Below, piece by piece: positions 19,475 through 51,336 of a DNA stretch of 64,000 nt (positions within the stretch are counted from its first letter, which is position 1; the number at the start of each line of letters is the position of its first letter). The position numbers and the translations under genes are program-made. The notes beneath the pieces are model-generated. The model was not told where the DNA came from and made no database searches. It saw nothing but the letters and a program-made list of their open reading frames with translations. This DNA comes from Rugalucina vietnamica (lineage: Eukaryota > Mollusca > Bivalvia > Lucinida > Lucinidae), in the NCBI GenBank assembly GCA_964017185.1, contig OZ024878.1, forward strand, positions 5,651,151 to 5,715,150, given 5' to 3'.

Positions 19475-19827
19475 AAGTTCGGGTTCTGTCAGAACTATTA
19501 CCGAGCATATCAGATGTCCCCAGCCTCTTTCCTGTTGAGTTCTTCTAGGTGTTGTTTATCGTTGGTTGGGGATAGGCTATGCAATTAGCAGCTTTTAGAG
19601 TTCAATTCGTACTAAGGATGAGCTATGTTGTTAGCAAGACTTCCAGAACCTTTTTGTTTTTGCTTAATATGCTATATAAAATATGATACGAGCACGTTGA
19701 AAATAATAAAACGCGACAGCAGTGGCGGTGTAAGGACTTGATACGATACAACGAAGAGAAAATACTAGTGCGGAGACAAAGAACAGGTTAGTTCAACGTT
19801 AGTCTGGTAAATCAAAGTCATACAATG

Positions 19828-20229
19828 TTATGCATCAAGATCTCCGCAAGTACAAGTATTTTGTAGTTACACAGTATTGAAACTAAAGGGGAAGATATGG
19901 ACCACATAAAACCGTACATAGTTTGGATCAAAAATAAGAAAATAGGTATACCCCTGCAAACCCCAGATTTTCTATATAAAAGTGGGGTTTAAGGGGGTAT
20001 TCATTGCACGGACAGGTTTTCCTGATGTTATGCATCAAGATCTCCGCAAGTACAAGTATTATTTGTAGTTACACAGTATTGACACTAAAGGGGAGGATAT
20101 GGACCACATAAAACCGTATATAATTTGGATCAAAAATAAGAAAATTAGGTATGCCCCTGCAAACCCCTGTTTTTCTATATAAAAGTGGATTTAAGGGGGT
20201 ATACATTACACGGACGTGTTTTCCTGATG
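19828..20229 (-). repeat. 200 bp tandem duplication, each unit ending in half an FB1 element
   Basis: Unit 1 is 19828-20027 and unit 2 is 20028-20229. Each consists of about 95 bp of non-repeat DNA (TTATGCATCAAGATCTCCGC...) followed by about 106 bp of the FB1 right half, ending CAGGTTTTCCTGATG or CGTGTTTTCCTGATG. The unit junction falls exactly at the FB1 end. Confidence 0.9.
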
Positions 20230-36621: not shown

Positions 36622-36690
36622 CGGTTAATGGCCCATCCCCTTTCTCATTATTATGTTCGCTGCTCTTAAAGAATCTCCGTTTTATTTATA
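36622..36690 (+). repeat. R1 repeat 3' fragment
   Basis: AATGGCCCATCCCCTTTCTC and GTTCGCTGCTCTTAAAGAAT, as in other R1 copies. Only the 3' part is present. Confidence 0.6.
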
Positions 36691-37341
36691 TCCACTAGAA
36701 AGCAAATATGACCACGGAGAAGACCGTCTTATGTCTTGAGTACCACGCGTCTTGATTTAGCATCAGAAAAACATGTCCGTGTATTGAATACCCCATTAAT
36801 CCCACTTTTATACAGAAAAACTAGGGTTTGTAGGGGTATACATTTTTTGCTTATCTTTTGCTCCAAAACATAAATTGCGGGTACTCGTTAGAACCGCCCC
36901 GCCGATATATTAAAATATCTTTTTTGTGAGTATTCAAGGTCAATGTCATTTCATTATGACTTAATACTCCAAGATCAGGCTTCAGGTGAGCGTTCTCAGG
37001 ACCAATGGTCCTCCGGTATTTATATTCACTAGGAAGCAAATATGACCACGGAGAAGACCGTCTTATGTCTTGAGTACCACGCGTCTTGATTTAGCATCAG
37101 AAGAACATGTCCGTGTATTGAATACCACATTAATCCCACTTTTATATAACAGAAAAAACTGGGGTTTGTAGGGGTATGCCTTTTTTCTTATTTTTTTTTT
37201 GCTCCAAAACATAAATTGTGGGTACTCGTTAGAACCGCCCCGCCGATATATTTAAAATATCATTTTTTTTTCAAGCAAAATTTTCAATTGGTACAGCTGA
37301 GAAAAATCTCCATATATTGCATTACCAAAACTTTTGTAATG
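36685..37341 (+). mobile_element. duplicated FB1 locus with a pearl-like tail between the copies
   Basis: 36685-36904 is repeated at 37019-37250 (period 334 bp). Each carries the host block AAATATGACCACGGAGAAGA...CGCGTCTTGATTTAG, then an FB1 start (36761 and 37095). In the first copy the FB1 ends in its core and is followed by a pearl-like 3' tail (36917-37018, with TTCAGGTGAGCGTTCTCAGG and AGGACCAATGGTCCT). In the second copy FB1 continues to its right end at 37341. Confidence 0.8.
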
Positions 37342-41640: not shown

Positions 41641-41756
41641 CTACAAACATATTAACAGCTCTTCATCCCTTCTGGCAAAAAGTCAAATATTTTCCTTTTG
41701 TACTAGTTTACCCTTTGGCGAACCACCTCATTGCTCCCTGTGATATAATGATGTCA

Positions 41757-42036
41757 CATTACGAAAACTTGCCCATGCAATATACAGAGAGCTTTTTCAG
41801 CTTTCAAAATTGAAAATTTTGTTGGAAAATTTTGGATATTTTTCTTATTTTTGCTCAAAACATAGATAGTGGGTACACGTTAGAACCGCCTCGACGAGGC
41901 GGTTCTAACGAGTACCCACAATCTATGTTTTGGAGCAAAAATAAGAAAAATAGGTATACCCCTGCATACCCCAGTTTTGCTTATATAAGAGAGGGGTTTA
42001 GGGGGGTAAATGTTGCACGGACATGTTTTCTTGATG
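41757..42036 (-). mobile_element. FB1 element with a 42 bp flanking duplication
   Basis: A 280 bp element (CATTACGAAAACTTGCCC...GGACATGTTTTCTTGATG). The 42 bp on its left (41715-41756, TTGGCGAACCACCTCATTGC...) is repeated on its right (42037-42078) with one mismatch. Confidence 0.92.
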
Positions 42037-42215
42037 TTGGCGAACCATCTCATTGCTCCCTGTGATATAATGATGTCAGCCAACTATTTCAGAAAACAAA
42101 ATCACCACTATGATAGTGATAATGATACATCTGCGTTTCAGATAGGTGTTCGAGGAGAAACTTTAAAAAAGGAGAAAATGGAGGAAAATCGATTGATAGA
42201 TGCTCGTTGCTTTAT

Positions 42216-43412: not shown

Positions 43413-43520
43413 CAAAACATCCACAGAGATGGAATAAGGAAGAAGTTCGAGTGTGGCTACACTGGTGTACCGAGGAGTTTTCTATAGACATGGTACCACC
43501 GGAGAAGTTTGATATGAATG
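43413..43520 (+). CDS. ETV6: ETV6/Yan-like gene, exon with first half of PNT domain
   Basis: 108 bp between TATATACTTACAG and GTGAGA, phase 1 to phase 1. With the carried base it encodes A-K-H-P-Q-R-W-N-K-E-E-V, then R-V-W-L-H-W-C-T-E-E-F, and ends at P-P-E-K-F-D-M-N. W-x8-W-L-x-W with an upstream H-P is the start of a Pointed (SAM_PNT) domain, a five-helix module for self-association and protein docking in ETS factors. The F-x-M-N-G-K-A-L junction to the next exon, in particular, is as in ETV6/TEL and Yan and differs from ETS1 and ERG. In that subfamily PNT polymerises head to tail and supports repression. FB1 sits in the intron just before. Confidence 0.9.
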
Positions 43521-43850: not shown

Positions 43851-43955
43851 GAAAAGCACTATGTCTGTTGGCAAGAAGCGACTTTATGGAGAGGCTACCC
43901 AACAATGGAGATGTGCTCTACAACTGTCTACAGAATCTGATTTCCAAGAATACAG
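43851..43955 (+). CDS. ETV6: ETV6/Yan-like gene, exon with second half of PNT domain
   Basis: 105 bp between TATGTTTATCCAG and GTATGA, phase 1 to phase 1. It completes G-K-A-L-C-L-L-A-R-S-D-F, then PNNGDVLYNCLQNLISKN. The pattern GDVLY.LLQ..L is the last PNT helix of ETV6-type proteins. Joined to the previous exon the domain is about 68 residues, the usual length, with no stop or missing core residue. Whether the hydrophobic surface pairs needed for polymerisation are kept cannot be judged without a model. It is followed by an intron of about 8.9 kb full of repeats. Confidence 0.9.
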
Positions 43956-44298
43956 GTATGACTAGTATACACTTCATTACGTACTTTGAGCATGCATGAT
44001 TTATGGTATAATTTTATATCCTTATGTTACATGGGCGGTTTGAGGGTGAAAATTATTCACAATCATATCAAGTATGTACCTGCCGGGGAACAAGGCTGTG
44101 TATTTTGTTAGTTTGATGGTGTTACCGAACACGGTGAATAAATAAATATGCAGGAAGCGAGGTTAAGTATCCTTTAAATGCAAGACTGCCAAAATTTACT
44201 AGACAATCTGTCCAAACTCATCAAATCCATATAGACAAAGACCAATCAGAGATTTGCACAAAGCTGGAAGTGAACCTCCCGAAAGGGAAGCGTGATTA

Positions 44299-44573
44299 CA
44301 TCAGGAAAACATCTCCGTGCAATGAATACCCCCGTAAACCCCACTTTTATATAGAAAAACTTGGGTTCGCAGGGGTATACCTATTTTTCTTATTTTTGCT
44401 CCAAAACATAGATTTTGGGTACTCGTTAGAACCGCCTCGCCGAGGCAGTGCTAACGAGTACCCACAATCTATGTTTTGAGCAAAAATAAGAAAAATATCA
44501 AAAATTTCCGCTGAAAATTATCGATTTTTGACCTGAAAAAATTACTGTTTATCATATGGGCATGTTTTCGTAA
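44299..44573 (+). mobile_element. FB1 element (E1) of the 44 kb duplication
   Basis: CATCAGGAAAACATCTCCGT to CATGTTTTCGTAA. The core has one arm mutated (CGAGGCAGTGCTAACGAGTA). Part of the H1-H2-E1-H1'-E2-H2'-E3 array. Confidence 0.85.
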
Positions 44574-44617
44574 AGTATTCACAATCATATCAAATATGTA
44601 CCTGCCGGGGAACAAAC

Positions 44618-44886
44618 CATTACGAAAACTTGCCCATGCAATATACAGTGAATTATTTAAGCTGTAAAAATTAAAAAAAAAAAATCAGTAAAACATTTGT
44701 TGTTTTTTCTTATTTTTGCACAAAACATAGCTTGTGGGTACACGTTAGAACCGCCTCGGCGCGTACCCACAATCTATGTTTTGAAGCAAAAATAAGAAAA
44801 ATAGGTTTACCCTTGCGAACCCAAGTTTTTCTATAAAAGAGTGGGGTTTAAGGGGGTGTTTATTTCACGGACATGTATTCCTGATG
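44618..44886 (-). mobile_element. FB1 element (E2) splitting the duplicated unit
   Basis: CATTACGAAAACTTGCCCAT to ACGGACATGTATTCCTGATG. The core is shortened (GAACCGCCTCGGCGCGTACC). Compared with the unsplit first copy, only a few bases are altered at the insertion point (AACAA/GGCTG), so there is no long TSD here. Confidence 0.85.
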
Positions 44887-45078
44887 CTGTGTATTGTGTA
44901 AGTTTGATGGTGCTACCGAACACGGTGAATAAATAAATATGCTGGAAGCGAGGTTAAGTATCCTTTAAATGCAAGACTGCCAAAATTTACTAGACAATAT
45001 GTCCAAACTCATCAAATCCATATAGACAAAGACCAATCAGAGATTTGCACAAAGCTGGAAGTGTGGGAAGCGTGATTA

Positions 45079-45355
45079 CATCAGGAAAACATGTCCGTGC
45101 AATGAATACCCCCGTAAACCCCACTTTTATATAGGTAAAACTGGGGTATGCAGGGGTATACCAATTTTTCTTATTTTTGCTCCAAAACATAGATTGTGGG
45201 TACTCGTTAGAATCGCCTTGCCGAGGTTCTAACTTGTACCCACAATCTATGTTTTGAGCAAAAGTAAGAAAAATATCAAAATTTTTTAGGTAAAAAATTT
45301 CAATTTTTAAAGCTAGAAAATTCTCTGTATATTGCATGGGCAAGTTTTCGTAATG
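45079..45355 (+). mobile_element. FB1 element (E3)
   Basis: CATCAGGAAAACATGTCCGT to CAAGTTTTCGTAATG, starting after H2'. The core is slightly shortened (CGCCTTGCCGAGG). Confidence 0.85.
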
Positions 45356-49325: not shown

Positions 49326-51336
49326 TAGCTCACCTGAGCCGAAGGCTCACAGGTGAGCTTATAGGATAGGCAGGCATCCGTCGTCCGTCGTCGTCCGTCG
49401 TCCGTCGTCCGTCCACAATTTCAAAGAAGAATATTTCTGAAGCTAGTAGGCCGATCTTGATCAAATTTAATGTGAACCATAATTGGGTTGGGGGATTGAT
49501 GGCATTAGGTTTTGGAGCAGATTGTATCAAAATTGTGGTTTCCATGGCAACAGATAGGTCCCATAGACTTACAATGGGAAAAACTAAAAAAATCTTCTTC
49601 TCTGAAACCACTAGGCCCACAGCTTTTATATTTGGTATGTAGCAATGGCTAATGGTCCTCTACATAAATTGTGCCATTCGTGCCCCTTGGGTCAAATTTG
49701 GCCACGCCCCGGGGGTCGATAGTCTCCATAGACTTACTATGGGAAAAAAAAAATAAAAAATCTTCTTCTCTGAAACCACAGGACCCACAGCTTTGATATT
49801 TTGTATGTGGCAATGGCTAATGGTCCTCTACATAAATTGTGCCAGCCATGCCCCTGGGGTCAAATTTGGCCACGCCCCGGGGGTCGATAGTCTCCATAGA
49901 CTTACAATTGGAAAAACTAAAAAAAATCTTCTTCTCTGAAACCACTAGGCCCACAGCTTTGATATTTGGTATGTAGCAATGGCTAATGGTCCTCTACATA
50001 AATTGTGCCATTCATGCCCCTGGGGTCAAATTTGGCCACGCCCCGGGGGTTGATAGTCTCCATAGACTTACTATGGGAAAAAAAATTAAAAAATCTTCTT
50101 CTCTGAAACCACAGGGCCCACAGCTTTGATATTTTGTAGGTGGCAATAGCTAATGGTCCTCTACATAAATTGTGCCGATCATGCCCCTGGGGTCAAATTT
50201 GGCTACGCCCCGGGGGTCGATAGTCTCCATAGACCTACAATAGGAAAAAAACTAAAAAAAGCTTCTTCTCTGAAACCACTAGGCCAACAGCTTTGATATT
50301 TGGTATGTAGCAATGGCTAATTGTCCTCTACATAAATTGTGCCATTCATGCCCCTGGGGTCAAATTTGGCTACGCCCCGGGGGTTGATAGTCTCCATAGA
50401 CTTACTATGGGAAAAAAATTAAAAAATCTTCTTCTCTGAAACCACAGGGCCCACAGCTTTGATATTTTGTTTGTGGCAATGGCTAATGGTCCTCTACATA
50501 AATTGTGCCAATCATGTCCCCAGGGTCAAATTTGGCTACGCCCCGGGGGTCGATAGTCTCCATAGACCTACAATAGGAAAAACTAAAAAAAATCTTCTTC
50601 TCTGAAACCACTAGGCCCACAGCTTTGATATTTGGTATGTAGCAATGGCTAATGGTCCTCTACATAAATTGTGCCATTCATGCCATTCATGCCCCTGGGG
50701 TCAAATTTGGCCACGCCCCGGGGGTTGATAGTCTCCATAGACTTACTATGGGAAAAAAATAAAAAAATCTTCTCTGAAACCACTAGGCCCACAGCTTTTA
50801 TATTTTGTATGTAGCAATGGCTAATGGTCCTCTACATAAATTGTGCCATTCATGCCCCTGGGGTCAAATTTGGCCAGGCCCCGGAGGTTGATAGTCTCAA
50901 TTTTAGACTTGCTATGGGAAAAAAAATTCAAAAATCTTCTTCTCTGAAACCACAGGGCACACAGCTTTGATATTTTGTATGTGGCAATGGCTAATGGTCC
51001 TCTACATAAATTGTGCCAGCCATGCCCCTGGGGTCAAATTTGGCCATGCCCCGGGGGTAGATAGTCTCCATAGACCTACAAGGGGAAAAACTAACAAAAA
51101 TCTTCTTCTCTGAAACCAAAAAGCCCAGAGCTTCTATATTTTGTATGTAGCAATGTTTGGTAGTCCCCATTATAAATTGTGCCAGTGACGCCCCTGGGTC
51201 AAATTTGGCCATGCCCCGGGGGTCAATAGTGTCCATGCATAGACTTTCATTTGTCGATTCTCATTTAATTTAAATCTCATGAGCTTACAATGTGATAATC
51301 TCTCAGGTGAGCTACAGGACCAATGGTCCTCTAGTT
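49326..51336 (+). mobile_element. pearl-like element with about ten 167 bp tandem units
   Basis: The left end is TTTTTAGCTCACCTGAGCC, with a small GGTGAGCTTATAGGAT lead and a GTCGTCCGTC-rich stretch. Then come about ten units of about 167 bp, each with TCTCTGAAACCACTAGGCCC, GCAATGGCTAATGGTCCTCT, TTGTGCCATTCATGCCCCTG and CCACGCCCCGGGGGT. The right end is TCTCAGGTGAGCTACAGGAC and the hairpin AGGACCAATGGTCCT then CTAG. Units alternate between two subtypes, so the array grew partly as dimers. No protein. Confidence 0.88.

Follow-up and report, generated by a model that had tools for sequence, protein, structure and literature searches.

A host segment and three elements in an intron

The window, that is the whole stretch of 64,000 nucleotides analysed here (C10:5651151-5715150 in the assembly), holds at 44054-45355 an array of short elements and duplicated host DNA. 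Just upstream of the array are two exons, which encode the first and second parts of a SAM/Pointed domain (Table 1). Joined, they match Pfam SAM_PNT (PF02198) with an E value of 6.5e-23, and the array starts ~98 bp downstream of the second of them. The preliminary description of this DNA had placed the array in the big intron of an ETV6-like gene, and as far as tested these Pointed-domain exons agree with an intronic setting.

The array itself is genuine. Sequence comparison bears out the proposed order H1-H2-E1-H1'-E2-H2'-E3, in which H1 and H2 are the left and right parts of the first host copy, H1' and H2' those of the second, and E1, E2 and E3 are elements. As had been claimed, E2 is reversed between the two parts of the second unit, and the host DNA is duplicated in tandem, as direct copies with one element at the joint. 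The unit, however, had been given as 521 bp, and is corrected here to 522 bp (277 bp of element and 245 bp of host DNA). Between the host copies there are 7 substitutions in 232 aligned bases (3.0%; 1/40 in H1 and 6/192 in H2) and one gap, and because the copies are 97% identical over 232 aligned bases, their likeness is not a matter of chance.

We searched the assembly (1,089,854,562 bases, or 1.09 Gb) with host sequence 44040-44297, skipping very common words. Three matches were returned, all in the array, corresponding to unit 1 and to the two parts of unit 2. Under the same search, host 44054-44298 has two copies in the array and no copy elsewhere in the 1.09-Gb assembly. We rejected the idea that H1-H2 belongs to a dispersed repeat, as the genome matches are confined to the array.

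Table 1. Positions of the exons, host copies, elements and tracts, numbered within the window
Feature	Position	Strand	Remarks
Exon, first part of SAM/Pointed domain	43413..43520	+	borders by eye
Exon, second part of Pointed domain	43851..43955	+	borders by eye
H1, first host copy, left part, 42 bp	44054..44095	+	39 of first 40 bases match H1'
H2, first host copy, right part	44096..44298	+	against H2': 6/192 substitutions and one 11-bp gap
E1, full-length element, mosaic	44299..44575	+	5' part E3-like (B), 3' half type A
Interval of E1 with the B-to-A switch	44334..44456	+	44334 B-like, A-type run from 44456
22-mer of E1 in common with E2	44350..44371	+	5 exact places genome-wide
H1', second host copy, left part	44576..44617	+	
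E2, reverse element between H1' and H2'	44618..44886	-	
Same E1/E2 22-mer within E2	44814..44835	-	
H2', second host copy, right part	44887..45078	+	
E3, full-length type B element	45079..45355	+	

The array has a single duplication joint, between positions 44575 and 44576, at the 3' end of E1. The joint reads CGTAAAG followed by TATTCAC, in other words a normal element 3' end, and the native flank in unit 1 reads GAAAAT followed by TATTCAC. The terminus of E1 is CGTAAAG, the usual element terminus being CGTAATG. In the flank immediately before 44054, at the outer edge of the first host copy, no element is seen. Unit 1 also contains the empty site of E2, where CACAGCCTTGTT stands against CACAG, E2 and GTTTGTT in unit 2, and two bases at the joint are not the same. 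Unit 1 has H1-H2 without interruption, and E2 is therefore an ordinary insertion into unit 2. The outer end of E3 adjoins the downstream flank and marks the end of homology only, with no joint. It had been claimed that every breakpoint of the rearrangement coincides with an element end. One duplication joint and one insertion (E2) do coincide with element ends, but with E2 an ordinary insertion and the end of E3 a stop of homology, one true joint is left.

The element and the duplications near its ends

The elements, named FB1 in the preliminary description, had been drawn too short. Their 5' part was omitted, and FB1 is the 3' part of an element of ~277 bp, whose 5' part has 22 further matches within the window besides E1-E3. 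Full copies are ~277 bp long, and most have both ends, with CATCAGGAAAACATGTCCGTGCAAT or near it on the left and ATTGCATGGGCAAGTTTTCGTAATG on the right (type B and others). The terminal inverted repeats are 25 bp and imperfect: when the usual 3' end is reverse-complemented, 20 of its 25 bases agree with the usual 5' end (counted by eye). As a single strand, E3 has a folding energy of -72.5 kcal/mol (z -14.6 relative to shuffled sequences), which is a strong hairpin with a self-complementary interior. A first look across the genome gave 16339 candidates for the element, of which 40 were scored. In 20 random stretches from 13 contigs, 200 kb in total, we found 28 copies or pieces (2.5% of bases, 10 of them full length). 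The 64-kb window has 34, which is ~four times denser than the random stretches, and is thus rich in the element.

On one hand, the element is like MITEs and foldback elements in being short, in having very many copies and terminal inverted repeats, and in forming a strong hairpin. On the other hand, it is unlike them in that its apparent target duplication is only ~1 bp, and its interior does not resemble the sub-repeats of Drosophila FB. Helitrons and Helentrons insert between fixed bases (A and T, or T and T) and have ends without inverted repeats of such kind; this identity does not fit the element, whose flanking bases vary and whose ends are inverted repeats.

The 68 full copies compared in this work are a biased set that mixes copies from the window, from the best genome hits and from the random stretches. 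In 37 copies with standard ends, the flanking base on the left equals that on the right in 25/37 (12.3 expected; 8 to 16 in other registers), and two flanking bases agree in 8/37. Empty sites in other repeats and in unit 1, among the matches listed, point to a target duplication of 0 to 2 bp. From these flanks, the target-site duplication appears to be ~1 bp. A long target duplication as a general habit of the element was rejected, 67 of the 68 full copies being without a long flanking repeat.

To see whether duplications are more widely associated with element ends, we looked for a further direct copy within 1.5 kb; in the random stretches one was found for 1/33 element-end flanks, against 82/600 random non-element 40-mers, and there is no sign of a general link. 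In the window the corresponding figures are 8/41 element-end flanks (at 4 loci) and 38/600 non-element 40-mers, which cannot be generalised because the window was picked for the array. With a looser threshold and both strands, 9/177 element ends over all loci examined have a nearby second 40-bp flank, and eight of these nine are in the window.

Several duplications in the window involve the element in different ways. At 41715-42078, a 42-bp direct repeat (41/42 alike) lies exactly against both ends of element b (41757-42036, reverse), the sole such case among the 68 full copies. At 19825-20229 are two tandem copies of ~97 bp of host DNA together with the 5' part of the element; the joint lies at the element's 5' end, with ATG common to host and element, and the host part is found at two places in the genome, both at 19825-20229. 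At 36683-37267, duplicated host DNA and an element piece recur 334 bp apart. This last case does not fit the same scheme as the array, since its copies break off within the element and are separated by ~90 bp of other sequence.

The middle element and its tract in common with E2

If the whole unit had simply been copied, E1 and E3 would be left with a roughly even divergence. Instead, substitutions between them amount to 1/54 in the first 54 bases, 8/88 in the next part, and 22/131 with 5 gaps in the 3' half. At the far 3' end (44501-44575) they reach 18/74 (24%), against 3.0% between the host copies. Counting substitutions only, the excess in the 3' half has a probability of ~1e-5 at twice the host rate, and with the 3' half so far above the host, E1 and E3 as simple copies were rejected.

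In the alignment of the 68 full copies, type A comprises 20 copies >90% like E1, and type B three copies >92% like E3. Of 18 diagnostic sites between the types, from 44456 to 44563, 17 carry the A base in E1 and all 18 the B base in E3, and the one A-type site of E1 that bears a B base is 44510. The two sites further left, 44334 and 44440, both carry the B base in E1; 44440 is a weak diagnostic site, with G in only 60% of type A. Genome-wide, of the copies with type-A markers 193 have T and 4 have G at position 44334 (E1 being one of the four), and of those with type-B markers 5 have G (including E3) and 5 have T, in counts that need exact marker words, tally only T or G, and miss diverged copies. 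Because G at 44334 is found in 3/196 other A copies compared with 4/9 other B copies, E3 is a much more likely source of the 5' part of E1 than a type-A element is. For the 5' side of the mosaic, the evidence comes from this one strong site, 44334.

A three-sequence scan of E1 with E3 and each of 19 single A copies gave p <0.05 in 9/19, and 0.078 to 1.0 in the other 10. The fit of E1 to type A is partly built in by the choice of groups; the difference between E1 and E3 and the counts at 44334 are independent of that choice. By these base comparisons E1 is a recombinant of two element copies, in which crossover and conversion would look alike, and the exchange point is bounded to ~120 bp inside the joint element. 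The preliminary description had also proposed that the elements take part in the duplication. This is very probably so, because the middle element is a mosaic of two types, beyond what copying alone gives, but most simply they would have served as passive homology in recombination.

E1 and E2 are in facing orientation with 42 bp between them, and have a rare tract in common. The 22-mer TATAGAAAAACTTGGGTTCGCA occurs exactly at five places in the genome, E1 and E2 being two of them, and its core AAACTTGGGTTCGCA was found only in E1 and E2 among all sequence examined. Over the rest of its length, E2 is no nearer to E1 than to the middle copy of the 68. One of the two elements probably received the tract from the other, through conversion or template switching across their possible hairpin. 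Local conversion is made likely by the presence in both elements of a 22-mer with just five exact places in the genome.

Pairs of facing elements with 41-58 bp between them are found repeatedly in the genome, and they rank high in the search since the query itself is such a pair. The spacers of five of them (L002-L006) each occur in full only once in their locus, and the idea that the spacer is generally repeated near inverted element pairs was rejected (0/5).

A probable unequal exchange between elements, and its rivals

We favour, with moderate confidence, an origin of the array by Bar-type unequal crossing-over between copies of one element at different, heterozygous sites. One starting chromosome would have carried H1-H2-E3, its only element being on the right of the host DNA. 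The other would have carried an additional type A element, E0, just left of H1, inserted between GAAAAT and TATTCAC. An exchange within the element, between E3 of the first chromosome and E0 of the second, would then give H1-H2-(E3/E0 mosaic = E1)-H1'-H2'-E3. A single step of this kind would leave the left edge of the first copy without an element, host copies differing like alleles, and a mosaic element exactly at the joint. E2 may have joined unit 2 either after the exchange or earlier, on the chromosome that carried E0, and a short tract would also have been copied between the facing E1 and E2. Where E1 meets H1', its 3' end is that of a normal element, which is what an E0 insertion would show. 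The flanking bases are A/A for E3, T/T at the proposed E0 site and A/T for E1, so that the two ends of E1 look as if they stem from different insertions. E0 is absent from the one assembled chromosome, and we infer its former presence, the single crossover event and the order of events.

This reading rests on a single assembled chromosome, and two haplotypes joined in a row via the element would give a false tandem copy that looks identical, since a mis-join through a repeat would mimic the signature of a crossover, mosaic element included. The host divergence of 3.0% is comparable to that between alleles of a variable species, and the other three element-linked duplications in the window are similar (2.4 to 4.3% in their host parts), so that this range in all four duplications is a concern. 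We nevertheless consider such an artefact improbable, as the array is just 1.3 kb and can be spanned by long reads, the contigs are chromosome-sized (35 to 83 Mb), the window contains no N, and one haplotype would also need to have had an element left of H1. Judged from its sequence, the array is most likely a genuine, well-resolved element-mediated tandem duplication. After the assembly question, the next rival to crossover is that the 522-bp H1-H2-E was copied in tandem in another way (replication slippage, hairpin template switching or end joining), and that the 3' half of E1 was then overwritten by gene conversion from a type-A element. This would yield an identical sequence, conversion seems to be active locally (as the few exact places of the E1/E2 22-mer suggest), and the very strong single-strand fold of E3 would suit it. 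It requires two events, however, and a joint at the exact end of the element would be either a coincidence or a special property of that end, of which the random stretches give no sign, and we think this route unlikely.

An aberrant insertion would account for the type difference between E1 and E3 by independent arrival: a type-A E1 would have inserted beside E3 with nicks far apart, at the 5' end of E3 and 245 bp upstream, and fill-in would have produced a very long target duplication. The 42-bp direct repeat that abuts both ends of element b resembles a long target duplication of this kind, but it could also be obtained by a Bar-type exchange (X-E with E-X), and in an ungapped test such a repeat is present in only one of the 68 full copies, the usual duplication apparently being ~1 bp. 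An independent type A element would moreover be expected to have T at 44334 (193 T and 3 G in the others), and E1 has G like E3. We find this explanation very doubtful. We also regard as highly improbable a reading in which the host duplications, differing in length (42 bp at element b, ~97 bp at 19825-20229 and 245 bp in the array), are made at the element's ends by the cutting machinery of the element itself, as transposition with very long target duplications beside older copies.

Unequal crossing-over between element copies, the origin that we favour, is itself already known and a textbook mechanism, and what is unusual here is the level of detail. The Bar duplication, in the passages of PMC13322080 that deal with it, has one roo element between its copies in the fruit fly, and an exchange involving elements at two sites is the explanation given. 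Like Bar, the array consists of direct tandem copies of host DNA between which a single element is kept. The host part at Bar is 203.5 kb (PMC13322080), compared with 245 bp of intronic DNA here, where the element is a short foldback. The array also differs from Bar, as described there, in that its joint element is a mosaic of types and its second copy holds a further element. Exchange between roo elements has been described at white (PMC7003089, citing Goldberg 1983). The feature in common, going by that description, is ectopic exchange between dispersed copies, yielding duplication and deletion; at white, though, a new event was observed in the fly, whereas we infer ours from one assembled chromosome. 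A review (PMC9659126) gives, in its treatment of the subject, recombination between copies as one route from transposable elements to tandem repeats. The array may have that route in common with such tandem arrays, but it has just two units, each with otherwise single-copy host DNA.

The array may thus give a view, at the level of single bases, of a very abundant short element duplicating host DNA by acting as homology, with probable later conversion of facing copies. If many insertions are heterozygous, exchanges of this kind could steadily supply small tandem duplications.

Tandem repetition of other kinds was also observed. A satellite-like array with a 166/333-bp period lies at 49553-51236 in the window, with no listed element piece inside it. 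At locus L040 (4263-4643), the 3' end of an element exactly abuts a 57-bp repeat, which is found twice in a row and again 1.5 kb further on.
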